Assembly (NCBI RefSeq): GCF_009905375.1
Contig: NC_133652.1
Location: 21,401,262 to 21,465,261 of the forward strand
Source of the DNA: Apium graveolens
Taxonomy: Eukaryota; Streptophyta; Magnoliopsida; Apiales; Apiaceae
DNA: 64,000 bases
Direction of reading: 5' to 3'
Translations under genes and position numbers: made by a program
Notes under the pieces: model-generated
Told to the model about the DNA's origin: nothing
Databases searched by the model: none
The model's input: the letters and a program-made list of their open reading frames with translations, nothing else
Part shown: in pieces, positions 41,953 to 64,000 of the stretch
How the letters are laid out: the number at the start of each line of letters is the position of its first letter
Numbering within the stretch: position 1 is the first letter of the stretch

Positions 41953-43267
41953 TGTTGACGGGGAATTTGGTATCAACAAAATTTGAGGTTCGTCGCCGGA
42001 ATCAAGATCTACGATGGTGGTTTTTCGCCTGAAAAGTGAGCGGAGTGTGGTGGTTGTGATAAATTGGGGGCTGAGATTGCTTAGGATTGGTGGTGGCTCC
42101 TTATGGCTCTCGCTTTCGACCCCTTACAATTTGCCTATGTATCCCTATTTATAAGGAATCAAACCCACGTAGTTCTTGGGGAACAAGAAATCTAATGGGC
42201 TTAGACTTCTTATTCCCAGGGCCGGTCTAGAATCCATCTTCCGCTAGTTTTAGGAATGTCCAACTATGAGGCCCAACCGTGAAGGCGCAAGGCTCATTTG
42301 TAATCGCAGGACTTCATGGATAATGCATCTCCCTGCGCAAGGATAACATTCCGCTATAGCTATCTCCCTTGAATTACGAACGCAGGTATAGCCACGGTTC
42401 ACCCCAAATGTCAGACGCATCCCTGTCCCCCGAATGAGGATAACCCACCAGATAGCAGGACAGGTGATCCCAAGCTCTTGGGTGCAAAGTGCAGGATGAC
42501 TCCAAAGTTCTTCAACGAGGACACCCATTGAATACAAGAACAGAGTTCCCAAAGCACACACCAAAGTTAACCCCGCATCCCCAACGAGGACACCCGTTGA
42601 ATACAGGAGGAGGCCTTCAATCATCAGGCATACCCCTGTAGGCCTTCAAGCTTTTCACGGACATCCCCCTCATTGACCGTCTCAAGGAGGGAATTCTTCA
42701 AAGAGTACCTGCAACAAATACGTTAGTGAAAATAATCCTCCATTGCTCCTTACACGCTTGTCTTGCTTTAAACTTACTCTTGATCATGCATTCTTCACAC
42801 ATAGGACGCGTCCTGAACGATTGGGCGCGTCCTGACCCTACGAACTCCACATATTGCTATATCTTCCAAGTATCTCTATTTGCTTTGTCTTGAATGAGAA
42901 CAAGCTCAACCATCCCAAAGTGTGCATCTCCAGGAGGCAGGACGCGTCCTCCCCTTATAAAATACACATATTCTCCTTGCATGGCAACCTTATTACATGT
43001 ACAGCTCATCCCATTATTTTTACTTATCAGGGCGCGTCCTGCACCTTGGGCGCGTCCGCCTCCTTTCAATATCTTCCTCCTCATCTCTTTACATGACAAC
43101 CCAAAGTACAGTCTATACAATCGTGGACGCATCCTACATATACAGGGCGCGTCTTCGCTTCATACAATGCAGACCAAAACCTAATTATTCATCTGTTTGC
43201 CCCAATTCAATTCCAATTGACCCGTATTTGACCCGAGATGATCCAATACCAAATTTTGGCTATAACA
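41953..43267 (-). repeat. 3' LTR of element I
   Basis: Begins TGTTGACGG and ends GGCTATAACA on the plus strand. A TATA-like sequence (minus strand TTATAAATAG, about 42,145-42,155) probably marks the U3/R boundary. It carries several GGRCGCGYCC motifs in 42,800-43,150. Confidence 0.85.
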
Positions 43268-43285
43268 ACTACCCCCGATTTCCCT
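43268..43285 (-). other. Polypurine tract of element I
   Basis: Minus strand AGGGAAATCGGGGGTAGT abuts the LTR end at 43,267. The counterpart in element II at 57,655 has the same GGGGGTAGT core. Confidence 0.65.
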
Positions 43286-44099
43286 ATGAAGTTGGAAACA
43301 AAATTGGAATTCTAATATCTACATCCAAGCAAAAATTTGTGTCATCCTCCACTCGTATGAGTATGCGTCTTCTGCATCTTCCTCTATGAGGGCGCATTCT
43401 CAATTAAGGTCGCGTCTTCGGAATCTTATCATCCTTATTGACCATGACGGCGCCCTCTCACTCTTTGCCGCGTTCACAATTGTCATTCACATTTCTTCCC
43501 GCCTTCACCTATGAATACCCCTTCTCTTCTTGATAACTTTAACCTTGGTTTGTCTAGAGAGATTTACCACTTATGTACCATATCTCTAAGCTTACATGAG
43601 ATAACTCGGCGTAAGAAACAAGAGAATTTGTACAAAAGTGTGCACCTCACATACCTTGGAAAAGCACAATCCATTAACAAAGGTTTGAGGGTTCTCTAAC
43701 TTTTTCATCCCAGTATTGGTCTCCCATGAGTGCGCCTTAAACTGAAAGGGTCATCATATGAGGGCGCGCTCTAAGGAAAACGCGACCAGAATGAAACACT
43801 AGCTCTCTGATCTTCAAGTAATAAATAATCTTTGACGCAAAAAGGACGTGCCTTGTTGGTGATAGTGATCCTTCCACCGATGACACAATACCATTCTATA
43901 TTTGATTTTCTGCTTCTTTCCAAATCATGACTCCAAACCGCTGATCTCATCTTTTCCACAAATAGCGTGATTCATTTATTCAAATCAAAGTCAAAACTTT
44001 TACAATCTTCTTCAATCATCTATTTTTAGAGGGCGCGCCCTTTAAAGAGGCGACGTCTTCCTCAAATAATTAACATCATTAGAGGGTGCGTCCTCCTTA

Positions 44100-45300
44100 C
44101 AAGGAGCGTCTTGCTCGATGAGAGGAGCGTCCACGTCGACAAGGGTATCATTCTTGGAGGGCGCATCCTCTATGAGAGGAGCGTCCACCTCCACAAGGGG
44201 AATCATCCTTGGAAGGCGCTTCTTCTCTAAGAGGAGCGTCTACTCTGACAAGCTAACATCCTTGGAGGGCGCGTCCTCTCTAAGAGGAGCGGCTTATCTC
44301 GACAAGGTCTTCATCTTTGGAGGGCGCGTCCTCTCTAAGAGGAGCGGATTATCTCGACAAGGTCTTCATTTTGGACTGCGCGTCCTCTCTAAGAGGAGCG
44401 GCTTATCTCGACAAGTTAACATCCTTGGAGGGCGCGTCCTCTGTTAGATACGCATCCACCTCGACAAGGGAAATCACCCTTGGATGGTGCGTCCTCTGTA
44501 AGAGACGTATCCACCTCGACAAGGGTATTCATCCTTGGAGGGCGTGTCCTCTGTCAGAGACGCATCCACCTCGACAAGGAAAATCATTCTTTGAGGGAGA
44601 TACCTCTGTAAGAGGAGCGTCTACCTCGACAAGCTAACATCCTTGGAGGGCGCGTCCTCTCTAAGAGGAGCGGCTTATCTCGACAAGGTCTTCATCCTTG
44701 GAGGGTGCATCCTCTCTAAGAGGAGCGGCTTATCTCGACAAGGTCTTCATCCTTGGAGGGCGCGTCCTCTCTAAGAGGAGCGGCTTATCTCAACAAGGTA
44801 ACATCCTTGGAGGGCGCGTCCTCTGTTAGATACACATCCACCTCGACAAGGGAAATCACCCTTGGAGGATGCGTCCTCTGTCAGAGACGCATCCACCTCG
44901 ATAAGGGAATTCATCCTTGGAGGGCGCGTCCTCTGTCAGAGACGCATCCACTTCAACAAGGGAAATCATTCTTTGATGGAGCTACCTCTGTAAGAGGCGC
45001 GTCTACCTCGACAAGCTAACATCCTTGGAGGGCGCGTCCTCTCTAAGAGGAGCGTCTTATCTCGACAAGGGTATTCATCCTTGTAGGGCGCGTCATCTAT
45101 CAAAAACGCATCCACCTCGACAAGGGAAATCATTCTTTGAGGGAGCTACCTCTGTAAAAGGCGCGTCTACCTCGACAAGCTAACATCCTTGGAGGGCGCG
45201 TCCTCTCTAAGAGGAGCGTCTTATCTCGACAAGGGTATTCACCCTTGGAGGGCGCGTCCTCTGTAAGAGCAGCATCTACCTCGACAAGGGTCTTCTACAG
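44100..45300. repeat. Tandem array, ~55-57 bp unit, ~20 copies, inside element I
   Basis: The unit reads roughly 'cttggagggcgcgtcctct', then '(c/g)taagagg(a)gcg(t/g)c' and 'ta(c/t)ctcgacaagg..ttcatc'. Its landmark 'gagggcgcgtcctct' recurs at about 44,264, 44,319, 44,373, 44,427 and on to 45,250. Each unit holds one GGGCGCGTCC motif and a second partner (GAGCGTC or GACGCATCC). Variants alternate in blocks ('ctctctaagaggagcg' or 'ctctgtcagagacgc'), suggesting higher-order amplification. Long open frames across it reflect the repeat, not genes. Confidence 0.9.
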
Positions 45301-46770
45301 AATCTTCATGTAATAAAACTAAATCAAAGATCAATATTTTTAGAAGGCTTTTATCTTCAACAAAGCTCAAGCGATGCAGAAACTATCTCTTGTTGAAACA
45401 TCTCCCAACGAGGCATCTCACGAAGTGGCATCTGATAAAGGGCATCTCACTCTCAGAGACATTTTCTTGAAGTTGAGCGTTTCCTTAAACATGAGTATTT
45501 TTTCGACCTTAAGCATCTCTCTTATTTTTAGGAAAAGTCATGTACCTTACTCATGTGGCAATATGTAACACCACAAAACTAATGAGAGGTAACCTACCCC
45601 CGAGCGTGCACCTTGTCAAAAGTACTTTGTAGCCTCATCTTCCTCATCTGAACTAATGCAACTCCCACATTCCCTTTTTGCTAAAGACAACCAAATGACC
45701 TTGGTAATCATATCGAAAGAAGAAACCTTAACATGAGCCAGATATGCTCAGGGTGCGTCCTGAAAACTCACTCAGATTATTGAGGATGTGAGGGCACGTT
45801 CGCTGAAACTAAACTCTCGACATACTAGGAAGATCATTGTACTTCATTTGCTTCTTTATAAATCATGTATGTAATGTCGAGGAAGATCACATGGGTATTT
45901 CAACGAAGGCGCGCCTTGAAAGAGATAGCCTTGGAGAGTTTACTTATAACTGTTGAGGATATAACATTATATCCTTAGATAGATGAGCTCATTCATGTCC
46001 AGGGGCCTCACCTTGACAATCAAGGGGCGCGTCCTAGGATTCATGGTACCTCTACTCTGATAGATTCTTTTCTCTTGAAGTTCCAATATTAAGATTCTCC
46101 TTGTGGTCAATAAAGTTCACCTCACCATCAATATTTTTTTCGAGGGCGCGCCTTAAGGAAAGGATGCGTCTTGAAAGATGAGGAATTAGTTCCAGTCGAG
46201 CCATTCTTCAAGTAGTGACTATAACTCATCTGATTATCATGACCTCTTCATTGAAAAATTCCATAGACTTTTTCTTCTGAGGGTGCGCCCTGGGAGGGCA
46301 ATTCTCCACTGAATGTTTCACATGCAGAAGGCGCGTCTTAATATATTGTGACGCAGCGCTTGGTAACTCATGAGATTTTTTCCTGATAAGATTTCCTACC
46401 AGCAATAAACACAATTAATATGGAACTTGAAATGTTACTTGGAGGACGCGTCCTAGAGGGACAGACGCATCTAGTCGGTGAATTCTCTTGGAATTTGCTG
46501 GAAGTCGTCTGGGCCCCAAATTTCTTAATCAAGGCGCGTCCTAAGAGTTTGTGGGGATTTTCTCCATGCCAAGTCTACTTCCCAATCCTCTTCCTGCACA
46601 AGTCCCATAAACGAGTAACGAAAAATACAATGAAACTAGTTGAGTGTTTCCTTGAGGGATCGTCTTAAAGGCGATGACTAGCTCATGATAGTAATGCCTT
46701 CTTCTCGGAGTTTTCTCCTCCCGATCGTCCTCAGATTTGCGCCTGACTAAGTCTTCTGATCTGAATAGTG
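45300..46770. other. Element I interior with dispersed GGRCGCGYCC motifs
   Basis: Non-coding, with motif copies at about 45,908 (GGCGCGCC), 46,026, 46,145, 46,330, 46,445 and 46,533. No retroviral domain in any frame by eye. Confidence 0.6.
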
Positions 46771-46774
46771 TTCT

Positions 46775-47025
46775 CAAATCTTCTAAATCAAACAGGATTG
46801 TTCATTCTTCTTATTGGAATATGATTCTTCAATCTTCTAAATAGAATAGGATTCTCCAATCTTCTAATTAGAACATGATTCTCCCATCTTCCAGATCAAA
46901 TAGAACTCTTCAATCTTCTAATTAGAATAGGATTCTTCAATCTTCTATAACAAATAGGTTTCTCCCAATCTTCTTAATGGAATGGGTTTCTTGCAATCTT
47001 CTAAACCAAATAGGATTTTTTGGTA
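46775..47025. repeat. Imperfect ~27-37 bp tandem repeat
   Basis: A unit like 'caatcttctaa(t/a)(t/c)a(g)aataggattctt' occurs about eight times, next to the 5' end of element I. It is AT-rich and lacks the GC palindrome. Confidence 0.75.
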
Positions 47026-47480
47026 AAAATTCGTAGCTGTTGTTTTCCTCTGTTTCCGGGTTGATCAACTTGGATTCTCGTAGCCATATCATCTCTGAAT
47101 TAAAGAGAATTCAATAAGCTTCGCGTAGGCTGTAAGATCGTCCAAATCTGACTTACGGAACTCAAGATAAAGCCCAAACAGTGTAAGTAAATCGCCTAAC
47201 CCATCAAATCCGAATTTCGCATCCAACTTCGCTCCTTCGTGGCCATAGCTGAAAACTTCAACCCCCATGGTTGGAAATCATCATCCATGAATCTCCGTCG
47301 TAGTCGCGGATACTACATTCAAATAACCTTCGACCCCCTAGCCGAAAATAGTTACTCACAGATCTCCTTCGTGGCCGTTGTTTGCAAACTCCTCTGTGGC
47401 TTTCCTTCAATTCTTGTGTAAAAAACCTTCATCGTGATGAGACATCTCTTCCTCCTAAGATTATGATATTAATCAGCACC

Positions 47481-47496
47481 CCTCCTTCTAGCGCCA
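47481..47496 (-). other. Primer-binding-site-like sequence of element I
   Basis: Minus strand, three bases past the 5' LTR: TGGCGCTAGAAGGAGG. TGGCGC is the common start of Ty3/gypsy tRNA primer sites; I did not assign the tRNA. Confidence 0.45.
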
Positions 47497-47499
47497 ATT

Positions 47500-48797
47500 T
47501 GTTAACGGAGGAATTTGGTATCAACAAAGTTTGAGGTTCGTCATCGGAATTAAGATCTACGATGGTGGTCCTTCGCCTGAAAAGTGAGCGGAGTGTGGTG
47601 GTTGTGGTAAATTGAGGGCTGAGATTGCTTAGGGTTGGTGGTAACTCCTTATGGCTCTCGCTTCCGTCCCCTTACAATTTGCCTACGTATCCCTATTTAT
47701 ATGGAATCAAGCCCACGTAGTTCTTGGGGAACAAGAAATCTACCGGGCTTAAACTTCTTATTCCCAGGCACGGTCCAGAATCCATCTTCCGCTAGTTTTA
47801 GGAATGTCCAACTATGAGGCCCAACCGCGAAGGCCCAAGGCTCGTTTGTAATCGCAGGACTTCACGGATAAAGCATCTCCCTGCGCAAGGATAACATTCC
47901 GCTATATCTATCTCCCTTGAATTACGAACGCAGGTATAGCCACGGTTCACCCCAAATATCAGACGCGTCCCTGTCCCCCGAATGAGGATAACCCACCAGA
48001 TAGCATGACAGGTGATCCCAAGCTCTTGGGTGCAAAGTGCACGATGACTCCAAAGTTCTCCAACGAGGACACCCGTTGAATACAAGAATAGAGTTCTCAA
48101 AGCACACACCAAAGTTAACCCCGCATCCCCAACGAGGATACCCGTTGAATACAGAAGGAGGCCTTCAATCATCAGGCATACCCCTCGAGGCCTTCAAGCT
48201 TTCCACGGACATCCCCCTCCTTGACCGTCTCAAGGAGGGAATTCTTCAAAGAGTACCTGCAACAAATACGTTAGTGAAAATAATCCTCCATTGCTCCTTC
48301 CACGCTTGTCTTGCTTTAAACTTACTCTTGATCATGCATTCTTCACACATAGGATGCGTCCTGAACGACTGGGCGCGCCCTGACCCTACGAACTCCACAT
48401 ATTGCTATATTTTCCAAGTATCTTTATTTGCTTTGTCTTGAATGAGAACAAGTTTACCCATCCCAAAGTGTGCATTTACAGGAGGCAGGACGCATCCTCC
48501 CCTTGTAAAATACACATTTTCTCCTTGCATGGCAACCTTATTACCTGTACAGCTCATCCCATTATTTTTACTTGTCAGGGCGCGTCCTCCTCCTTTCAAT
48601 ATCTTCCTCCTCATCTCTTTACATGACAACCCAAAGTATAGCCTACACAATCATGGACGCATCCTACATATATAGGGCGCGTATTTGCTTCATACAATGC
48701 AGACCAAAACCTAATTATTCATCTTCTTGCCCCAATTCAATTCCAATTGACCCGTATTTAACCCGAGATGATCCCATACCAAATTTTGGTTATAACA
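47500..48797 (-). repeat. 5' LTR of element I
   Basis: Matches 41,953-43,267 with scattered substitutions and an 18 bp deletion near 48,590, where two neighbouring GGCGCGTCC copies of the other LTR have collapsed into one. Confidence 0.85.
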
Positions 48798-50968
48798 CGA
48801 TACATTAATTGTAATGAGGTTATTAGGCTTCACACATATGATGTAATGAGGTTTTGTAGAATTAAGCGTTTCCATTAATTGTTGGAGTTGTGCCTGTAAA
48901 TTTTTTTAATAGTAACCGTTTTTACCTTCTTGCAAAAGAAAGGGCTTGAAATATTTCTATAGTTCCAAATGTTTACAGTATCACTGGAAAAAATAAAATC
49001 AATTCATTGCGTTAATGACAAGAACCTTTTTATTTCTATACCTTGAACCGAGATCCTGTAGATGAGAACTTGGAAGATTTAGATGATGACTTGGTTGTCT
49101 CTTCAGGAAGTGGTGGGAAAAGGCAAGCTACAAAAGAGCATTTGGAAGCACTCAACAAATCTTGATGTTCGGCCACAACATAGTCTTTGTTTTTGTCCAA
49201 AAATAGATCAGATTGATATTGGACCTAAAACCAACATGCAGCATGAAGCCATGTAATTTAGAAGACTCCTCCAGTTTGCAGCACTTAGTAAAAACAAGCA
49301 CAAGATAAACAATTAAGTCGGCAGTAGCAGGCAAATGCTCACAGTATTTTATGTGAAGACATCAGACTTGATCATGAAACACCCTTGAATACACAAATCT
49401 CAAATATTATGATGAGAAACATGATATTATTCATTATCCTACCAGGCTTCGTCAAGCAGAGCAACGATCCCTCCAGGTTTCTGCAAACGAAGTCAATAGA
49501 ACCTTTGGTGAAACATTTACTGTAAGATCTATAATTAGCCGAACTAGTAACTGTTAAGTACTCTATATATTGAAGACATATCTCTGGACTCAAAATCGTA
49601 CATCATGAGTTATAATGTTAGACCAAGAAAATCAATCCCTTAGTGCATGACCCGTAGTCTGATTTTTGAATGAAATCATTACGCTCCCTATAGCGATAAT
49701 TCAGCAGCATCTATGTTCAATTTCAAAAAGGTTCACTTTGCATTTTTTAGCAATCCCTTGATGAAGCATATTTAACCCTAAAAAAATGCCACTCCCCAAA
49801 CAATTATGTAAGTATTTAGCAAAAGAACGATAATGCAATTATGGTTGAATAAAATAATTGAGTGAGCATAAGATCCGTGTAATACATATAACACTTTGAC
49901 TTTGACTAATCTAACAGTTGGCGTATTATGATAAATGAGTTGTTTTTTAAACATATCCACACTCTCTAAATATAGTACACTTTGTAGCTTATGGGGATAA
50001 AAGTGAAAAAACTTAATTATAGTAAAAAATTCAGTGCAGTAATTGCATTTATTAATCATCGTGAATTGGCATAGACCTTAAATTGACAACATTTTAGGTA
50101 CAAAAGGGGTACTCAACAACAATACAAAAGAATATATATTATTAGTAGTGGATTTCCGGGACATCATAGGAAAGATAATTTCACTATATTTGTGAACGAC
50201 AGGTCCGGATATAGTATTTTATTTGAGTATAGTAGCCCTGCCTAGATTCATGCTTTTAGACACTGCAAAATCAGATAAAAAATTATCTTCATCAACCAGT
50301 AAATTACACATTTTGACTTAATGTACCACACTGGCCACATGGCAGGTCCGTGCAGTGGACCTTTGGATGCCTAACATGCACTTGGCTCAAAAATGCACTC
50401 AGACTCAACAACAAAGATACTTCTTGATCAAAAGAGTCACTCTCTGTCCGTCTCTCCGCTATTGTACTACCAAGCAACACTTCTGCTATTCCATAGCAGG
50501 CAGATCGACATTTATCAGGCGGAACTATATACGTTATTCGTCAAGCACTAAGCATGCTATCTACAGTCTAGTACGCGGTATTTCTTGCTCATTAGTACTC
50601 TAACAGTTCGTCTTTCGTGTAGCAGAGAGGGTAGGCGAAGTTATATTCTCTCTTCCAGTCTTGGGAAGTTGCTCAGATTGAACAGCATTTTAGTCCTCCA
50701 ACATCGCTAATGACATCGAAGAAATAAGCTCCATCTTCTAGTCTTTTACTATATAGAACTGAATGTTTGTGTTGTACTTTACTATTAGAAACTAGCTTTA
50801 GCCTGCAGATTATCATAATTCAGGTCAATAACTAACCTAAAGGTTTACCTTTTCAATCAGATCTAGGACATCTTGGTTATCGACAAACTCTATGTAGCTC
50901 CAGTTGATCGCCTCTTTTGTATACTCCTCTTGTTCCATCTTGAACACATGTTGTTAAATCGCCAAATT

Positions 50969-53606
50969 AATAACCTTTATTAATAAACAAAACCTTCTTT
51001 CAAATGGTACTTAGTTTCACTTATTTTTTGGTACCACCATTTTGATTTCACTTTTTCATCATGAATAACTTTAACTCTAATATCCTTTTTGATTCGACTT
51101 ATAATTCTATATATATATATATAGGGTCTTATTCCATTGAGAAGCTTTTTTTGGTGAGATATGAGATCTAATCTCAGCCATAAAAATTTAAATATATTTT
51201 TAATCTACAACATTCATTTTAAATCCCATCATCTTCTCCAACCATTATCTCTTCTATCTTCTCTCTACTTACCATCCACCATTACCTCCAATTACCGGCA
51301 ACCACCATTTCCGGCCACCACCACTGCCGGTGACCACCACTACCTCCGGCGATCACCGAAAAATCATCACCGGCAAACATAAAATCACCACCGTCAAATT
51401 AAAAAAACACCCCCGGAATATAAAAAATCACCACTGAAAAATGAAAAATCACCACCGGAAACACAAAAATCACCACATAGCCACCGGTAAAAAAAAATCA
51501 AAGTCTATACTCACCACCGGAAAATCAAAAATCACCATTAAAAAATGAAAAATCACAGCAACCGACAACTGATAAACAAAAAATCACCTCCGAAATAAAC
51601 AAATCACCACAACCGGTCACTGCCTATACTCACCAGATCCTACCACCAACTCAATTCATCAACTCCGATCACCACCATTAGAACAAAAATCACCATATTT
51701 AACTATAAATAGCATAGTCAAATCCACCATGTCATCATCACCACCACAATAACCATCACCATCCATTGACCCCCGATATCGGAAGAATTACCAAAATTTA
51801 TTAAAAAATTACCCATGATATTGATCAAAAGATTTCAAACTATACACAGTAGAGCAATTGCAAGGCCAATATTCAAGGTAAAACTCTGATCGATGAAATT
51901 AACTGTGGACGAATCAGTAAAAACAGATCCAATGGCGAATGAATTGAGCTTGAACGGAAAGTGCGGTGGTGTGCGTATAGTTGTGTGTATGTAATCCGTT
52001 GTGGAGAGGGAGGGAGGGAGAGAGAGAGAGAACAGTTCGGCGATGAGTAGTATAGTGGCGGTGGCATCGGGTGGTAAGGGTGGAGAGAGTGCAGTGGTGG
52101 GTGGGTTGAATGTCCAGAGAGAATTGACAAGAAAATAGTTGGGTGGAAGAAGGAAATGTGTGGTAGGGATTAAAAGAAAAATAAAAAATATTATAAAATG
52201 GAGGGCTGAGATCAGATCTCATATCTCATTATAATTGGGGTTCTCATTTGAGCAACTCCCTATATATATATATATATTATTTTTACCCGTTTTTCTTTAT
52301 TAATAAATTTTTTTAAGTGATACTTTTTTTTCACTTATCTTTTGGTTCTATCACCTTTTGTTTTTTTTATTTTTATGATTCATGGTGTAACTCTAGGTGT
52401 AATATTTTTATCGTTTTTTATTTCTATATGACTTATAATTCTATATGTATTATTTTTACCCGTTTTTCTTTATTAATAAACGAAACATATTCACTTATTT
52501 TTTAGTTCCACCACCTTTTGGTTTCACCTTTTATAACTCCAAGTGTATTATTATTATCCTTTTTTATTACTATATGACTTATAATTGTATATGTATTATT
52601 TTTACTCATTTACAAAATTTTTATAAGCCATATTTTTTTATTATTTGTATAGGTTTGAATCCTATTTTTAAATATATTTTAAAATAAATAAGTTCACAAA
52701 TTGGCTCAACTAAATAGGCTCCGAGAAATATAAACCGCGATCAAGTAAATAGGTCATGTGTTTAAATTGAAAATTTTTAATTTAGAATTTTTTAATTTGT
52801 TGGTATAATTCCATATTAATAAAATGGTATGAATATTATAAAAAATTGTATTTTGGTTTCACCACTGGAAAATAATAAAATTGTCCAAACCGTAATATGA
52901 TAACAATTCTATTTCCGTAGAACTCCAAATTATTTCTTGATAGGGTACTTGGTTTCATCTTAGTACGGTTACGCCTTATTTTGGTTTCACCCCTATAGTT
53001 CTCTTTCACCCCTATGTAGCTCTAAATATATCATTTTTATTCTTTTTTATTTATATATGGCTTATAATTATATATGTAATACTTTACTCGTTTTTTGATT
53101 CTTATAGACCACATATTCATATTGTTTTTATATAAACAAAATCGTATATACATTGTAATTTCTAGATTCATACCTACGGAATGCTATTTTAGCACCAATT
53201 GCAAATTTATACATACATAATGAATATTTTATCATAAAAAATTATGTAATCACAAACTATATAAAAACACAAATTCAGCTAACAATAAGAAATTTAATAT
53301 GCAATTACTTAGTGATGTTGATTTAATTTTTTATTAAATTATCCATCAATCGTGTCGCGGCTTAAGTTTTATTGTAAAATATTAGTTATATTTTTTGAAC
53401 AATAGATACATAATAATGTTAAGTTTATTGTTATAATAAGATTTGAATTAATGAAAGTTACATATAATTTAAAAATGAAAATTATAATAATCGTACAATT
53501 TTATTTATTATATATTTTAATAAAAAAATTAAAATAAATTTTTATAATCATTATTAAATACTGATATTTTGATCTCGGGCTGTGCTTCGCACGAGTTATC
53601 TAGTAG
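50969..53606. mobile_element. 2.6 kb insertion in the duplicated myosin intron, Helitron-like 3' end
   Basis: The intact gene reads 'gccaaattataattaaagtg' where this copy has 'gccaaatt', 2.6 kb of extra DNA, then 'ataattaaagtg'. Near the right edge is hairpin CTCGGGCTGTGCTTCGCACGAG (53,574-53,595), then ttat and CTAG (53,600-53,603), a Helitron-type 3' end; a few extra bases (tagtt) follow before the myosin sequence. The left edge does not start with TC, so boundaries or class are uncertain. The body has a degenerate 155-175 bp repeat ('tttttctttattaataaa', 'cttataattctatatgtatt') from 50,970 to about 53,100 and is interrupted by a TIR element. Confidence 0.6.
51123..52261. mobile_element. 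TIR DNA transposon, ~1.14 kb, non-autonomous
   Basis: Terminal inverted repeats of about 57 bp: the left starts AGGGTCTTATTCCATTGAGAAG, cut here to its first bases AGGGTCTTATTCC, and runs to GAGATCTAATCTCAGCC at 51,179. The right (52,204-52,261) reads inward AGGGAGTTGCTC.. to GATCTGATCTCAGCC. Both ends sit in (TA)n, so the target duplication is hidden. The interior has 'aaaatcaccaccgg' repeats (51,310-51,620) and a GA-rich stretch (51,990-52,035). No transposase. Superfamily not assigned; long TIRs fit Mutator-like elements. Confidence 0.7.
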
Positions 53607-54259
53607 TTATAATTAAAGTGTAAAAGCTGTCTTAGAATGGCGCACCAAAAATGACGAACTTATTACCTGGTTGAAATGCTGTTGCAGCTTCTCATTTGTA
53701 TAATTAATGCAAAACTGCTCAAAACTGGACCAAACATATATAATCAGCCCAGATTAAAATGAGGCAGTAGCAAAATCAATTTCAACCAGTCAAGACATGG
53801 AGGATGACCTAGTCAAGACATGGAGGATGAAGACATGGTCCATTCCTCTAAACAATAATCCTTTCAGTCGTAATTTACAAAACATGAAAACATAGGTTAT
53901 GTGTGTCTCCCTTTGTGTGTCTTATAATAAAATATTGATTAGTACTGGATGTTATGACCTCCTGTGTGCTTACAATTTATAATGGAAGGTGGCTGTGAAA
54001 GAACTGTTTCATGTCGCACGCCTCAATATATTATATATGTATAATAATGTTGATGGAGGAATTTGGTAACAACAAAGATTTGGTAACAACAAAGATTGAG
54101 GTTTCTCGCCGGAACTAAGATCTGTGACGGTGGTTCTTTGCCGGAAACTTAAGCGGTGTGTGGTTGTTTTAGGCTGAGATTGATCAGAGTAAGTGGTGGT
54201 TCTCTTATCAGTTCTCAACTTCTTACCCTCTCAATGTGCCTACGTACCCTTTATATAGG

Positions 54260-55353
54260 TGTAATATCCCGTAATTTTTTTAGAATTCGATTAATAATAG
54301 AATAATAGAAAAAAGTATTAAAATTTGATTAAGATTAGGATTTAAAATTGAATTAGAATAACATGCCTAAAATTTGGATCAGATTCTAATATGGATAACT
54401 TGTAGGTTAAGAAATAGGGTTTTGTATCGTTATAAATACATTCTATTCGTCTTCCTCGTTTTAATCATTAAAATTCGTAGGCCTTTATTCATAAAATTCA
54501 GCAGTTTTGCAAAATTCGTAGAAAATTCATCGTAAGTCAGAATTCAGTGATTCTAGACTTTTCGGAGAGATCTTTTCGTTCTCCACAACTTTTGTGTTTT
54601 GTGTTTTTCAAGATAACGTCGTTTAGAGGGTCAAAAAAGGCTAAATTCAGATCTGGTCAGATTTTGAGGTAAGTTTTCGATCGATCTTGCTAGATTTTCA
54701 AAATTATGTGATACGTGTATATTTGATTATCAAAATTTGGGCTGAGTGATTATATATTTGAGAGTATTATGTCTTAAGTTATATGTATCGAATATATATG
54801 TGATGTCTAGACGATAATTTGAGATCTTTGATTTGTGCCATGGTTTGTGAAAATATCAAATAAGAACTTAGGACCGCAGTCACCGGATTGTAGTGACAGT
54901 TTTGAGAAAATTTAGGACCGTTATCACCGGGTTGTAGTGGTCTTGGCATGAATTATGGGTTTTGAATTATTGTTGTTTATGTGTTATGTGTATCGTATGT
55001 ATCGAATAAGAATAAGAATAAGAAAGTGTATCAAAAGTGTTTGTTTCGTATATCGTATCGTATAGATTATCGTATTTTGTTATATGTGTTCATGTTACTT
55101 GGCCTACTAGTTGGATCGATTGATTTCTTGCTGGGCTGTATAGCTCATTACTTACAATTTCAGGTTTCGCCTAAGAGTTCGAGTTGGATAGCATTGAAGT
55201 TAGAGGACTTAGAATTGGAGTTGTTTGACTTTTAGACTTCTGTTAGCTGCGCTTTTGTAATAGTCTCCTTTGTAATTGAATTTTCGATTAGTAAATTGTA
55301 TTTTTTTTTAGTTTTGATTTAGAATTAATAGTCCGGATGTGCGGGTCATTACA
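54260..55353 (+). repeat. 5' LTR of mini element
   Basis: 1,094 bp, TG..CA ends, apparently identical to 55,530-56,623 at an exact offset of 1,270 bp. Confidence 0.95.
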
Positions 55354-55355
55354 GT

Positions 55356-55368
55356 TGGTATTCAGAGC
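55356..55368 (+). other. Primer binding site of mini element
   Basis: TTGGTATTCAGAGC, two bases past the LTR, is the initiator Met-tRNA primer site with one extra T relative to TGGTATCAGAGC. Confidence 0.75.
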
Positions 55369-55516
55369 AGGCTGTCTTTCGGAGTGTATTAGGTATGGGA
55401 CTAGTACATTCCCTAGGATTCGATCTTGTGGACCATAGTTTGACCTTTGGTAGATCAGGGGGTAGATGTGTCTCGAACTTTAGGATTGTTGTGAATTTGG
55501 GGACCAAATTCTTTTT

Positions 55517-55529
55517 AAGGAGGGTAGTA
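55517..55529 (+). other. Polypurine tract of mini element
   Basis: AAGGAGGGTAGTA directly precedes the 3' LTR. Confidence 0.8.
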
Positions 55530-56623
55530 TGTAATATCCCGTAATTTTTTTAGAATTCGATTAATAATAGAATAATAGAAAAAAGTATTAAAATTTGATT
55601 AAGATTAGGATTTAAAATTGAATTAGAATAACATGCCTAAAATTTGGATCAGATTCTAATATGGATAACTTGTAGGTTAAGAAATAGGGTTTTGTATCGT
55701 TATAAATACATTCTATTCGTCTTCCTCGTTTTAATCATTAAAATTCGTAGGCCTTTATTCATAAAATTCAGCAGTTTTGCAAAATTCGTAGAAAATTCAT
55801 CGTAAGTCAGAATTCAGTGATTCTAGACTTTTCGGAGAGATCTTTTCGTTCTCCACAACTTTTGTGTTTTGTGTTTTTCAAGATAACGTCGTTTAGAGGG
55901 TCAAAAAAGGCTAAATTCAGATCTGGTCAGATTTTGAGGTAAGTTTTCGATCGATCTTGCTAGATTTTCAAAATTATGTGATACGTGTATATTTGATTAT
56001 CAAAATTTGGGCTGAGTGATTATATATTTGAGAGTATTATGTCTTAAGTTATATGTATCGAATATATATGTGATGTCTAGACGATAATTTGAGATCTTTG
56101 ATTTGTGCCATGGTTTGTGAAAATATCAAATAAGAACTTAGGACCGCAGTCACCGGATTGTAGTGACAGTTTTGAGAAAATTTAGGACCGTTATCACCGG
56201 GTTGTAGTGGTCTTGGCATGAATTATGGGTTTTGAATTATTGTTGTTTATGTGTTATGTGTATCGTATGTATCGAATAAGAATAAGAATAAGAAAGTGTA
56301 TCAAAAGTGTTTGTTTCGTATATCGTATCGTATAGATTATCGTATTTTGTTATATGTGTTCATGTTACTTGGCCTACTAGTTGGATCGATTGATTTCTTG
56401 CTGGGCTGTATAGCTCATTACTTACAATTTCAGGTTTCGCCTAAGAGTTCGAGTTGGATAGCATTGAAGTTAGAGGACTTAGAATTGGAGTTGTTTGACT
56501 TTTAGACTTCTGTTAGCTGCGCTTTTGTAATAGTCTCCTTTGTAATTGAATTTTCGATTAGTAAATTGTATTTTTTTTTAGTTTTGATTTAGAATTAATA
56601 GTCCGGATGTGCGGGTCATTACA
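55530..56623 (+). repeat. 3' LTR of mini element
   Basis: Copy of 54,260-55,353, followed by the duplicated 'atagg'. Confidence 0.95.
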
Positions 56624-57654
56624 ATAGGGATCAAGCCTGACGTAGTTCTCGTATAACAAAAAATCTAATGGACTTAGACTTCTTATTCCTAGGTCCAGTA
56701 GAAGCCAATCCAACGTCCGTCTTCCGCTAGCTTTAGGAATGTCCAACTATGAGGCCCAACCGCGAAGGCCCAAGGCTCGTTCGTAATCGCAGGACTTCAC
56801 GGATAGTGCATCTCCCTGCGCAAGGATAACACTCCGCAACCGCTATCTCCCTTGATTCACGAACGCAGGTATAGCCACGGTTCACCCCAAGTGCCAGACG
56901 CGTCCCTGTCCCCCGAATGAGGATAACCCACCAGAAAGCAAGACAGGTGATCCCAAGCTCTTGGGTGCAAAGTGCAGGATGACTCCAAAGTTCTCCAACG
57001 CGGACACCCGTTGAATGCAAGAACAGAGTTCCCAAAGCACACACCGAGGTTAACCCCACATCCCCAACGACGACACCCGTTGAATACAGGAGGAGGCCTT
57101 CAATCATCAGGTATACCCCTGGAAGCCTTCAAGCTTTTCACGGACATCCCCCTGATTGACCGTCTCAAAGAGAGAATTCTTCAAAGAGTACCTATAACAA
57201 ATACGTTAGTAAAAATAACCTCCATTGCTCCTCTCCATACAAGCTATTCCATGAAGTCACCATTGAGTGCACATAGATCAATCACAGGACGCGTCCTAAC
57301 CCATTGGGCGCGCCCTTTCCTTCATAAACCCAACTCCGTTTCTTCATTAACCACCCATTATAGCGTGCCAAAGCTACAGGACACGTCCTAGTGGAGACAA
57401 GCGCGTCCTACAACTCCCATTACCATAAGATCACATTTACCAAATACATTCACCATGATTGACGCGTCTACTAAAATTGGGCGCGTCCTTCCCTATACAT
57501 ACACTACCCTACTTCGTCGTTGACAGACTATAGCTCATCTTCTAACAAGTAGGCGCGTCCTTCACGCTGGACGCATCCTAACCTCCTGCAACGCAATACC
57601 GAGTTTGACCGATCGTATTCCGCATTTGACCTGGGCCGAATTTTACATATAACA

Positions 57655-57668
57655 ACTACCCCCCAAAT
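57655..57668 (-). other. Polypurine tract of element II
   Basis: Minus strand ATTTGGGGGGTAGT next to the LTR end at 57,654. It is the counterpart of the tract at 43,268. Confidence 0.6.
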
Positions 57669-57826
57669 TCCATTTGCAGTTAACAACAAAATTGGAATTT
57701 TTATCCTTGAATCCGAGTAACGAAATTTGGCCCAAAACAATTGAACGCCTCATGGCCGTAGGACGCGTCTTGCTTTCACCTTATACCCGTGACACACAGC
57801 TGTCATCCACGTAGCCGTCCTCCTCC

Positions 57827-57834
57827 TATAAATA
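57827..57834 (+). promoter_or_regulatory. TATA box of the antisense gene
   Basis: TATAAATA lies in 'tcctataaatatcctccc', about 850 bp upstream of the antisense ATG at 58,682. A possible 5' UTR intron runs from a GTATGC donor near 57,985 to the acceptor 'ttcttttgcag' at about 58,500. It is a plausible independent plus-strand promoter inside element II. Confidence 0.5.
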
Positions 57835-58681
57835 TCCTCCCAACTCACAATTATACCTTATTCTCTTTCTTCCCAAAAACCGCCATTGCCGCCCTTTTAA
57901 GCAGGAGTTCCAAGGTCCAAAAATCTGGCGATCTATCCAGCCATTTCCCGATTTTCTCAGCTTAATCAATCCCCCAACTTACGAGGTATGCAAATCTTCC
58001 ATTATTTCTTAATTTCATTGAGCAAATCGACTATAACGAAAAAAAACTGTTCACATACCCCATGCTTCTATGAACTGTTCTTAGTTTCCCTTGTATGTAT
58101 ATATGTATATATCTGTAATTGGGTCGTGTTTTGCTCTTTTGATTCCACACTTACATGTTTCTAGGTTCGTAGATAGACTTCCCTCAAATCGATTGTAATC
58201 GATTGAAATTCCACTACATTGCAACCATGTTTGACGCGCCTTCCCGTTAGGGCGCGTCCTGTATATCCTTATTTAAGACGTGTTTAAGTTGTCCCAAACA
58301 AAGGTAATATAGAACCAAAAGCCTAATAGGACGCGTCACCATAGCACTTCTCTGCGATAGATTACTAGGACGCGCCTTCGAATGTCTCTAGTAGCTTCCT
58401 TCATTATCATTCATTTTTCTTTTCTTTCCCCTTTATCTTTTCTTCTCTCCCCTTTTTTTTTTGTGGACGCGTCCTCAAATTTTTGTTTATTCTTTTGCAG
58501 CTGGAGGACGCGTCTTCTTCCTCACCTTTCCATCCGTTTAAAGTCCTCAACAAATGCCTTAGAATCTACTCCTCGCACCTGATCTCTTTCAAACCCGACT
58601 TCCCTGAATCGGCATAGGACGAGCTCCTTTCTCAAAAAAGAAAGACGCGTCTTCCAATCTCTCAACTCAAAGACTTCTATA

Positions 58682-61251
58682 ATGTCTGACTCCAGCTCCG
58701 ATTCCATGGACCATGTTCCCATAAGCTCAAGAATGAAAAAGAAGGGAGTTAAAAGGCAAAGAACTCCAGTTCTCCATACTAGGGCCGCCATCGAAGATTG
58801 GACGGACGATGAGATTGTTCCTACCACAGGCCAAAAGCCTCGAGGAATTGCTGTTTCAAACGAGGACGCGTCCCGTTCCCAGGACGCGTCAGATTCCCAA
58901 GGTGCAACTCCTTCTCAGGACGCGTCCCCTCTTAGTGTAAGCGAATTTGAAAAGAGGGTTCCCGACCCCGAAACATATCCTGTATCCCCCCAAAAATCTG
59001 ATTCTCCCCTGGAACATTGGGAACCTGAAGACGTTGAAACAGATTGTGACTGGGCCAGGCTTGGTGCCCTAACTGAAGTAGAGAAAAATGCCAGAAAGAA
59101 GAAAGAAGGTAAGCTAGCCTGTGTAGCCCTTGACTCGACTGCAACTGACTGGGAAATCCAATGGCACATGAAGTACTATGACATGGAGGGCATCTGGGCG
59201 CACCCTCTTCGAACCATGAGGCCACACATTTTCAACATTGGGAACCAAAGGATCCCAAGAATGGTGCTTACACCAAAGTTAATTTCCCTGGGTGTGGGCG
59301 CGCCCTTGCATCCATACATTAAGAGAATTTTGAAATGGTACGACGTGGCCCCAGTCCAACTATCACCAAATTCATACAAGCTAGCATGGGCTTTGTATAT
59401 TAACTTATTTTACAGCATCAGGAAATCAATTCCCGGGTACCATTTCCTGGTTGTCAACAAATGGTTGAACAATAAGAGATTTAATGAAGGTAAAATCAGC
59501 CACGAGCGAGACTGGAAGGAGCCATTTTTCTATATTTATGATGTCAAGAGGACGCGCGTTCGCTTCAACTTGGAACCAAGTAAGTTCAATATTTCAGACG
59601 CGTCCTGTGTATCAGGATGCGTCTTACCCTTTATTACCTTCTTTCTCTTTTTATAACCTATTCTCCCCTCTCTAGACAAAAGAACTCAGAAAGAGCTAAC
59701 AAGAAGGAAGAAGAAGAGAGCAGAGAAGGTATTATAGTATGCTGAGAAATATTTCAACCTCAAGGACATGATTACTGAAGAAAATTTGAAGAAAATAGGA
59801 GCTTTGTCTCCACGAGTGGGTTCTCTCTGCAAATTCCGAGACTTCCATAATGGGAAACCCATCCTCACTGCTTCCGAAAAAATCCAAAGGGCTCCAAGCC
59901 ACAGAAATCATTCAGCCAGACATCAACAAAAAGGTGGACTTAGTTCTTAAACATAGGACGCGTCATGGCTTTAGGACGCGTCTCCTTGTGCTCACCTTTC
60001 CTTAATTCTAACCCGACTTATGAACGCTACTTTATATCTGCGTTGTTACCATGGGCGCGCCCTACCCCCCGGGCGCGTCTTTTTTGTAAAATTTTATGGT
60101 TTTGCTATTAATGTTACTTATGCTTTTCCATATATCCGAAGCGCGTCCTAGGTAAGACGCGTCACTTCTCTAGGAGGCACATATATCTATACATTTTTGC
60201 ATTCATCTATATCTGTCATGCATGTAGAATTTTATATCATAATATGGGCGCGTCTTGTTCCAAGGACGCGTCTTCTTGTACTTAACTAATACCTTTTCTT
60301 GTTTATACCACAGATATGGCCTCTCTTCCCAAAGGATTCGCAATCGGGGCCTCCAAAAAGCTAAGGGCCAGGAAACAGGCCCCTACAAAGGTTGATACGA
60401 AGGCAAAAACCTCAACTCCTGTTACAACTCCTTCTCCTCCACCAAAGATAATTGACACCACTGTATTAGACATCCCCGAGAAGGTGGAGGACGCGCCCTC
60501 CAAACGCCAAAAGGTAGTTCCAGACGATCAATCCTTCGTTCTTCGATATCTGGGCGCGTCCTCAGCTGGAAATTTCATAGAGGACGAAGTCAGAGGCTGG
60601 ACCTTCAGGACAGAGCAACAAACAGAAGAGGCCATGGTGAGGGCTGTAGCTGAGCTTCACCTGCACGCTAGGCAAAGTGCTAATATGGCTGCAAGGCTCA
60701 GGGCGCGTCTTGCTGCCACCGACACTGCAAGGAGCCAGGCTGAAGACAAGGTTAAATCTCTGGAAAGATACATTACCCTGTTTGTCCAAGAGAAAGATGC
60801 TGAGATCAAACGCCTGGAGGGGGAGAGGGCGCGTCTTGAGTCAGAAAAGGCTGTGTTGGAAGGTAATGTCTCCTCATTGGAGAAAACAATGGATAGTGTC
60901 ATCGTGCTGAATTCCACCATGCAGCTGGAGCTTGACACTCTGAATGATGACAGGCTGCATGGATGGACAGAGGAGAAAAAGCTAGTTTACCAGCACGGCT
61001 TCCAGGCTGGGTTTGAAGAGTGGTGCTCTGGGTTTATTGCCAACAACTCAGGGTATACATTTTCAAAGTTTGATGCAGATACCCAGATATGGGTCAATGA
61101 TTTCAGGGTCAGGGTCGCAGATTCTATCAAGAACAAGAGGATTTTTCTAGGCTTAGAGGAAGAGGACGCGCCCCCTTCTCCTGCTCCGCTTCAGACTCAA
61201 CCTCCCCCTGCAAATGACCAAGACAAGCCTCAGGACGCGCCTCCTACCTAG
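58682..61251 (+). CDS. Antisense gene of element II: Transposase_28-type protein with coiled coil (degenerate middle)
   Basis: Runs opposite to pol. Exon 1 (ATG 58,682 to donor at 59,580) opens MSDSSSDSMDHVPISS and has an acidic Ser/Pro region with three QDAS units. It then has a domain like the plant 'putative gypsy type transposon' family (Pfam Transposase_28), with APLHPYIKRILKWYDVAPVQ, LSPNSYKLAWALYINLF and WKEPFFYIYDV. Acceptor 'cccctctctag' (59,676) opens exon 2 (KELTRRKKKRAEK..); a TAG at 59,735-59,737 interrupts it and a probable frameshift follows near 59,880. Acceptor 'ataccacag' (60,314) opens exon 3, an open frame from ATG 60,316 to 61,251 (311 residues) with a long coiled coil (about 115-215) and a Pro-rich end. 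Function unknown. Confidence 0.65.
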
Positions 61252-62076
61252 GACGCGTCCTATGTTTTTCATGTATTCTTCCTGAACTATTTTTAAGGGT
61301 GCGGGCCCCTTGAAGCCTTGCAAGTTGTGATGATTATTTTTGAACTTCATTCACTTGCACTTTTTTACTTAAGTAGTCATTTATATGGGCGCGTTTTGTG
61401 TTTAGGACGCGTCACCTTTGACTAATTGTTATTTTTTCTACTCACATGATAAGCAAATTTCCGTAGTGGACGCGTCCTCTATAGTTGGACGCGTCTTTAT
61501 TTGTTTTGGAAAGTGCATGAGCACGGCACTAAGTTGTACTTGTTTATTTAGTCAAGGCACAAAGCACAATGGGGCGCGTCTTAACAATTTGACGCACCTA
61601 AACTTTTTCTCTAAGAAGTACTTCATCTCTCAGGGAGGACGCGTCCTTGGTAGGGACTTGTTATATTAAAATTAAGGAAACATTCAACTGAAAGAGCATC
61701 AACCAATATAACTTGGGCGCGTCCTTGGAAATAGTACACTTCCTAGTTCCATTTTTACTTGAGTTTTATTGTTCCTTTTGACAGCCACTAATTCAGTTAA
61801 CATTCGCATAGAACTATCAATCAGGGCGCGCCCTATGGCTAGGACGCGTCATGCAACCAAGCAAACAAAGCAAATAACTTTTTGGAAAATTTCAAAGATT
61901 TTATTTATAATGCGCTTTGGTGTCAAAAGTGCACCAGTCCCATGGCTACTATGCTCTGTGGGGAAATAAATTCGAAAAAATGACCCTTCAACTAGTTCCA
62001 AGGTAAGTTGTACATGCACTACCCCCCTAGGCTAGGAGGAATTTATTTAATTCTAGCCTATAATCCGGGCATAACC
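61252..62076. other. Spacer between antisense gene and pol
   Basis: Non-coding. It holds about ten copies of the palindromic motif (61,388-61,838) and probable 3' UTR of the antisense gene. The last 200 bp before pol contain none. Confidence 0.6.
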
Positions 62077-63999: not shown

Positions 64000-64000
64000 C

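Follow-up and report, generated by a model that had tools for sequence, protein, structure and literature searches.

A 10-bp palindrome, GGRCGCGYCC, is scattered through a Ty3/gypsy retrotransposon family represented by two elements, hereinafter A and B, in a stretch of 64,000 nt of Apium graveolens DNA (contig NC_133652.1; the window, numbered along the "+" strand throughout). We consider it fairly probable that GGRCGCGYCC is a cis-acting recognition site that this Retand-type family has amplified and that its own antisense TRP28 protein most likely reads. A binding site for a family-encoded protein, amplified in the manner of VANDAL elements and their VANC proteins, had been proposed in an earlier reading of the same DNA (the original prediction); judged by the sequence evidence, this is the best-supported reading of the motif, and the interpretation as a whole is partly supported. 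New support for a family-encoded reader comes from the spacing of paired sites, the constraint on the codons that spell them, their retention in element A, and the change of the motif between TRP28 clades.

The window contains 37 exact copies of the palindrome, all between positions 42804 and 61833 and all within the two elements, and 70 copies of its core, GRCGCGYC, in the family segments, 13 in a tandem array of element A and 57 elsewhere; the dozens of copies claimed originally for one gypsy family are thus confirmed. The core is absent from positions 1–41952 and 48798–54047, from an insert nested in element B (54260–56626), and from the pol end of the window (61851–64000). Against the 57 exact cores seen outside the array, 200 sequences simulated from the family segments with a first-order Markov model contain 0.14 on average and at most three. 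The half-site letters can be arranged into 20 palindromes; of these, GGRCGCGYCC occurs 27 times outside the array, the next three, which partly overlap the GRCGCGYC core, eight, seven, and six times, and the remaining 16 not at all. The motif thus greatly exceeds its shuffled controls and is missing from the window outside the family, so that the original prediction survives the refutation that it had set for itself. Genome-wide, the pattern GGRCGCGYCCN6GG has at least 1282+1316 matches vs. 64+51 for the reversed pattern (these repeat counts being lower bounds). The flanks add an A on the left and a T on the right, giving a full site of about AGGRCGCGYCCT.

For comparison with the rest of the genome, we used 38 loci (L009–L046), namely, 20 first loci (L009–L028) and 18 smaller ones around isolated motif matches. 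They are the first places listed, all from contig C1, all motif-bearing and many dyad-bearing, so that motif density and spacing in them are biased upward. All 20 first loci match the long terminal repeat (LTR), leader, or antisense-gene region of the window family, and seven of the eight isolated matches checked (the first eight of the smaller loci) sit with family LTR or TRP28 matches, L032 being the exception. The pol gene, described originally as nearly free of the motif, contains no core at all, either in 2150 bp here or in the pol matches of the 20 first loci (18,579 bp), against 442 cores found in those loci.

One-mismatch cores number 22 vs. 4.6 expected, and 15 of them are C-to-T or G-to-A changes at the core CpGs. 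Among the one-mismatch sites at 42805–61850, the outer cytosines of CGCG are altered 13 times and the inner ones twice (binomial 0.007, with LTR copies counted repeatedly). The variable pair of the core, R..Y, reads on the "+" strand outside the array A..T in 26 sites, G..T in 18, G..C in eight, and A..C in five; the two mixed forms are thus unequally frequent (18 vs. five, binomial 0.011).

The sites are paired at a fixed distance. The original prediction placed the pairs 15–20 bp apart; the pairing is real, and the spacing is sharper. In the window outside the array (56 exact sites, the one at 61843, 18 bp from 61825, being truncated by the segment end in this count), all 11 exact pairs less than 36 bp apart are spaced by 18 or 19 bp, whereas uniform random placement yields 0.56 such pairs on average and never more than five in 5000 runs. 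If one-mismatch partners are included, 18 pairs lie at 18 or 19 bp, one at 16, and one at 20 bp, and in the tandem array seven further pairs, made up of exact or one-mismatch cores, are exactly 18 bp apart. Of the 93 such pairs counted in the 20 first loci, 88 have the 18- or 19-bp spacing, and the others are at 17 or 20 bp. Genome-wide, two sites separated by a gap of 8–9 bp are found in 3377 places and their reversed control in three, whereas gaps of 0–7 bp together yield 105 places vs. 100 for the control, those listed being mostly of gap 7; gaps above 9 bp were compared in the fetched loci. The spacer sequence varies from pair to pair, which speaks against the dyads being duplicates of a single unit. 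For longer distances, helical phasing is unconvincing (resultant length 0.16–0.28 for periods 10–11). Among motif-compatible peptides of 58 homologous proteins, four pairs lie at 18 or 19 bp (shuffled mean 0.07) and the commonest spacing is 54 bp; since spacings other than 18/19 bp also occur, this argues only weakly for the dyad.

The motif is constrained as DNA, even within exons. The original prediction noted that exonic copies are read in frame as short peptides, and indeed eight out of nine [DG]A[SP] tripeptides encoded by exons 1 and 3 of the antisense gene are spelled GRC GCG YC, two ARL tripeptides hold the core in another frame, and ten out of 11 GCG alanine codons of the window exons are inside exact motifs, the eleventh, in WAHP, being inside a one-mismatch version. 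In the pol frame, GCG is an ordinary alanine codon (14 out of 51), and yet the motif is absent. The same holds in other copies of the gene: 70 of the 92 such tripeptides are exact motifs, and alanine is written as GCG in 79 of 92 cases within these tripeptides vs. 53 of 489 elsewhere. In exon 1, the tripeptides are written as the site in 42 out of 50 cases in clade 1 and 20 out of 24 in clade 2 (the clades are defined below). Motif-compatible peptides of 26 more distant TRP28 homologues, counted over the whole protein in three frames, number 48 vs. 7.7, 18 vs. 5.2, and 35 vs. 10.9, aligned and hence non-independent positions being included.

Non-coding DNA shows the same tendency. When the 20 loci are aligned to the window, 166 out of 254 comparisons retain the exact core of the window copy, motif CpGs are kept in 432 out of 504 vs. 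458 out of 826 for other CpGs, and non-CpG motif positions in 1309 out of 1479 vs. 19815 out of 24407 for other positions; the cells are non-independent, and the loci were picked for holding the motif. Between elements, 12 of 17 motif CpGs of the element A LTR are kept in the LTR of element B vs. 19 of 61 other CpGs (Fisher 0.005), and for the second LTR of element A the proportions are nine of 14 and 23 of 61 (Fisher 0.08); the comparison of LTRs is weakened by the chance that the alignment program anchors on the motif. The original prediction offered recent spread or selection as causes of so many intact copies. A clean burst of recent copies is disfavored as the whole explanation, because motif CpGs outlast the others between LTRs that have diverged by about a quarter outside the motif, a retention that recent spread alone leaves unexplained.

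The motif also changes with the TRP28 clade. Sorted by their TRP28, the 38 loci comprise 13 of clade 1 (64–87% identity to the window copy) and seven of clade 2 (39–48%), the 18 without a TRP28 match being excluded; on the maximum-likelihood tree, one branch parts the two clades with support 100/100. The variable pair reads A..T 198, G..T 94, A..C 46, and G..C 37 times in the clade 1 loci, and one, 13, nine, and 86 times, respectively, in those of clade 2 (A..T vs. G..C between clades, Fisher 4e-47, a value inflated by near-copies and non-independent cells). A..T exceeds G..C in 13 out of 13 clade 1 loci, and G..C exceeds A..T in seven out of seven clade 2 loci, which had been seeded by G..C-containing forms, about one seed per locus, the remaining sites being unselected. 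No such shift is seen for the core-less control GRNNNNYC (A..T to G..C 445:270 in clade 1 and 109:101 in clade 2), and the base composition is similar (GC 0.415 for clade 1 with the window copy, 0.430 for clade 2). In an unprompted ranking of 8-mers by surplus, GACGCGTC is at the top for clade 1 with the window copy (440 vs. 0.73 expected, both strands), and GGCGCGCC is at the top for clade 2 (172 vs. 0.17 expected). The spacing differs as well: 75 out of 78 distinct exact pairs of clade 1 are at 18 or 19 bp, while the 11 distinct exact pairs of clade 2 are spread over 16, 17, 19, 22, and 27 bp; once one-mismatch partners are counted, 27 bp prevails in clade 2 (six out of 13). Part of this spacing contrast stems from the choice of loci; still, L011, L027, L028, and L044, taken from single-motif matches, contain nine, five, eight, and five exact pairs at 18/19 bp, respectively. 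Thus, mostly GACGCGTC with 18/19-bp dyads in clade 1 gives way to GGCGCGCC with mixed spacing in clade 2.

The loci without a TRP28 match are mixed, ranging from A..T seven, G..C one (L018) to A..T one, G..C nine (L042). L042 is rich in GGCGCGCC and has two 23-bp spacings, and L046, also without a TRP28 match, is rich in the mixed form GGCGCGTC; the two may represent additional families or arrays, each using a motif form of its own.

The candidate reader is encoded by the antisense gene of element B, which lies on the strand opposite to pol, between pol and an LTR, that is, in the position of the antisense TRP28 open reading frame (ORF) by which Retand elements are recognized; by this gene, element B is classified as a Retand-type Ty3/gypsy element. 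Exon 1 (58682–59581, "+" strand) encodes TRP28 (Transposase_28, PF04195); in the window copy, where a stretch of the TRP28 domain present in relatives is missing, the match has E 0.00076, under the curated Pfam cut-off, and relatives match PF04195 better (43 out of 53 aligned proteins at E up to 0.01). An annotated A. graveolens protein, P0042, shows 80% identity across 36% of the exon 1 protein. A structure model built from 28 alignment rows (P0001) is poor (predicted local distance difference test score, pLDDT, 44), while that built from 53 rows (P0003) is usable chiefly in the TRP28 region, whose best blocks reach pLDDT 80–93, with 59 for the whole model. Comparison of the TRP28 model with viral proteins gave nothing significant, and no TRP28 loci were found in the viral and prokaryotic contigs searched. 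The sole match of a PDB sequence search, a histone at E 0.52, was dismissed as chance. One TRP28 protein, P0027, is filed under the fungus Rhizophagus clarus and bears a LOC108 name, a kind that we take to be used for carrot genes; it is probably plant DNA inside a fungal assembly.

TRP28 is the best candidate because its gene is at the center of the motif field, with sites on its upstream side, in its introns, and in its exons; because antisense TRP28 ORFs, reported across flowering plants in 97% of recent Retand clusters, have been predicted from sequence to be DNA-binding, their function being stated as unknown (PMC11963269); and because element A, where no antisense gene was detected, still carries and amplifies the motif, as expected of a partner served in trans. 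The palindromic site suggests that the protein would bind as a dimer, and the 18/19-bp dyad could be occupied by two dimers. The bound protein would then mark the DNA of its own family in trans, including non-autonomous copies, and might control transcription from the LTRs and of the antisense gene. Every site contains two CpGs, which makes a link between binding and CG methylation probable: TRP28 would probably counter or sense this methylation, a role that VANC and Spm TnpA play for the elements encoding them. More tentatively, Retand LTR retrotransposons may practice a VANC-like self-recognition, in which the family TRP28 binds its own CpG palindromes, exons included, and prevents CG methylation from closing the family along with its non-autonomous partners, protein and motif changing together at family splits.

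Several observations weigh against this. The idea that motif CpGs escape decay is only partly right: they are kept better between elements, as shown above, but between the two LTRs of element A ten out of 13 motif CpGs and 31 out of 43 others are kept, so that after insertion the motif has no advantage and there is no sign of old copies being shielded from methylation. An advantage seen between elements and not between these LTRs agrees better with selection acting on the lineage as it replicates than with a shielding of old copies. The co-variation of the motif with TRP28 is a single evolutionary contrast, and gag, integrase, or the last exon may have diverged on the same branch. In distant TRP28 proteins, motif-compatible peptides occur in 15 out of 21 intron read-through tails, two of which (P0021, P0022) are mis-cut (shuffled mean 2.7), a hint that the motif is more conserved than a fast VANC-like race would have it. 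Finally, the predicted TRP28 fold has no match among PDB structures, and so presents no recognizable DNA-binding domain.

The sites could instead be those of a host transcription factor for CGCG-cored palindromes that drives LTR and antisense transcription, the element having amplified them. CAMTA-type factors are readers of the CGCG box, which RCGCGY within the core resembles, and both the LTRs and the region preceding the antisense gene do contain sites. However, conservation spans 10–12 bp, longer than the CGCG box, exons, introns, and the spacer are filled with sites as well, and the 18/19-bp spacing is confined to one of the two clades. Moreover, both clades reside in one host nucleus, each with its own dominant form of the motif, which a family-encoded reader fits better than a host factor, whose preference would be alike for both; we therefore regard the latter as unlikely. 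A clade-specific motif suits family-encoded readers in general, and gag, the integrase, or the last-exon product might be the reader, e.g., gathering family DNA or guiding integration; LTR retrotransposons often target palindromes, to judge by the title of PMC6911290. Here, though, the sites are internal and dense around the antisense gene, with no obvious fit to an integration target, and we hold this explanation to be improbable.

Equally doubtful is a short repeat without any reader, self-spreading or homogenized by slippage, template switching, or gene conversion. Some copies do form a true tandem array, and exon 1 contains an 18-bp ladder, but dyads of fixed spacing have spacers that differ in sequence, copies occur in more than one reading frame and in unrelated flanks, and the better retention of the motif extends to its non-CpG positions. 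The palindromes might also pair in the element RNA as a signal for dimerization, packaging, or splicing, and the excess of G..T over A..C sites on the "+" strand outside the array could be taken in this sense. The genomic RNA, however, corresponds to the "–" strand, where G..T sites form A–C mismatches and not wobble pairs; the fixed 18/19-bp spacing and the spread across LTRs, introns, and the spacer are unsuited to such a role, and combinations of the variable pair are near the single-letter expectation (an arithmetic estimate). RNA-level pairing is thus disfavored by strand bias and spacing, and we give it very little credence. Recognition of the site by the family's own TRP28 remains the explanation that we favor.

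The two elements are organized as follows. Element A (41953–48797, "–" strand) has two LTRs that are 93% identical to each other; its orientation follows from a TATA-like box together with a PBS-like TGGCGC (47496) that adjoins the right-hand LTR. Its 3′ LTR (41953–43267) contains exact cores at 42805, 42824, 42941, 43031, 43049, and 43146, with two exact dyads, every exact core being upstream, on the "–" strand, of the TATA-like box near 42154, and its 5′ LTR (47500–48797) contains exact cores at 47962, 48372, and 48579. The internal region (43268–47499) holds 20 exact cores, including those of the tandem array (44091–45295, about 21 units of ~55 bp). The motif had been claimed for every array unit, which is overstated, as the units contain ten exact 10-mers, 13 exact cores, and 16 one-mismatch cores. 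No antisense gene was found in this region (best tblastn E 0.38), which shares a single stretch of 72 bp with element B. We read element A as a putative non-autonomous partner.

Element B consists of one split LTR, the antisense gene ("+" strand), and pol ("–" strand), which runs off the window end. The first piece of the LTR (54048–54259, "–" strand), cut by a nested insertion, is motif-free, and the remainder (56627–57660) has exact cores at 56897, 57288, 57307, 57461, 57480, and 57552, with two exact dyads. Eight exact cores, at 57762, 58233, 58251, 58330, 58369, 58466, 58507, and 58644, lie in the region upstream of the antisense gene (57661–58681, "+" strand). Exon 1 contains exact cores at 58865, 58883, 58919, and 59297; the introns with exon 2 (59582–60315), whose boundaries were judged by eye and whose exons are spanned likewise by P0042, contain eight exact cores and four dyads, one of them with a one-mismatch partner. 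In the last exon (60316–61251), coiled-coil-like by eye, six exact cores (60490, 60553, 60702, 60828, 61165, 61234) are in two reading frames, and the spacer between the antisense gene and pol (61252–61850) has nine, from 61252 to 61843. The motif-free pol (62077–63999, "–" strand) is a 640-residue open frame, with RNase H and integrase assigned by eye.

The insert nested in the LTR of element B, from 54260 to about 56626–56631, comprises two 1.1-kb direct repeats that are 99.7% identical, with 168 bp between them; this ~2.4-kb sequence appears to be a young LTR-pair element that leaves little space for genes. Elsewhere in the window, positions 1–2266 form a satellite-like tandem array of 12 copies of a ~176-bp unit (alternatively, 344–352 bp), and a ~570-bp unit is repeated three times in tandem at 24221–25924 with about 88% identity. 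The segment 29826–32562 is duplicated at 48812–54047, directly between elements A and B, in pieces 92–98% identical, the second copy containing extra sequence.

With a candidate target motif whose letters and spacing depend on the clade, the function of TRP28 becomes directly testable. If the proposed role is true, element-encoded, sequence-specific self-recognition extends to LTR retrotransposons, the tandem arrays between pol and the LTR of Retand elements have a reason, and the family is another case, beside VANDAL and Spm, of selfish DNA narrowing counter-silencing to itself.

Retand elements have been described as Ty3/gypsy elements with an antisense TRP28 gene between pol and the 3′ LTR, where tandem arrays also lie (PMC11963269, PMC7264820), and A. 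graveolens is among the species having Retand clusters with antisense TRP28 (PMC11963269). The sections consulted of that description do not mention a target motif, and the LTRs here, 1.3 kb, are longer than those of three tabulated celery Retand clusters, 548–570 bp (PMC11963269). Among the literature matches listed, mostly non-subscription papers, none describes palindromic dyads in Retand elements or assigns TRP28 a target motif, and the listed matches to GGACGCGTCC, GGGCGCGTCC, or GACGCGTC deal, by title, with p53 sites, bacteria, primers, and the like. The p53 response elements, RRRCWWGYYY, are paired 10-bp palindromic half-sites with spacers of 0–13 bp, CpG-bearing half-sites being bindable (PMC2666794). 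Our sites are likewise paired 10-bp palindromes, with a spacer of 8–9 bp; the analogy is one of form only, and no relation is suggested.

The Spm/En element is a CACTA DNA transposon whose TnpA is associated with many copies of a non-palindromic subterminal 12-mer, located only at the ends. The family described here resembles it in the proposed element-encoded protein and the many copies of a short site, and differs in being an LTR retrotransposon with palindromic sites beyond the ends. Activation by TnpA in maize is correlated with demethylation (PMC10398659). For VANC21 of Arabidopsis VANDAL, with the motif YAGTATTAY, both binding and loss of methylation have been shown, and there, as here, a short motif is packed in the non-coding parts of one family, including introns and tandem repeats, is rarely dense elsewhere, and differs between related families with differing proteins (PMC5735166, PMC10398659). 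In our case, too, the motif is dense in the family, rare elsewhere, and changes with the protein, the latter on one contrast. Unlike the VANC motif, it is a CpG-bearing palindrome with fixed dyads and exonic copies, recognized here from the sequence, and unlike VANDAL, a Mutator-like DNA transposon, the family is an LTR retrotransposon by its LTRs, pol frame, and PBS-like and PPT-like sequences. Thus, it may work like VANC, but it is not a VANDAL.

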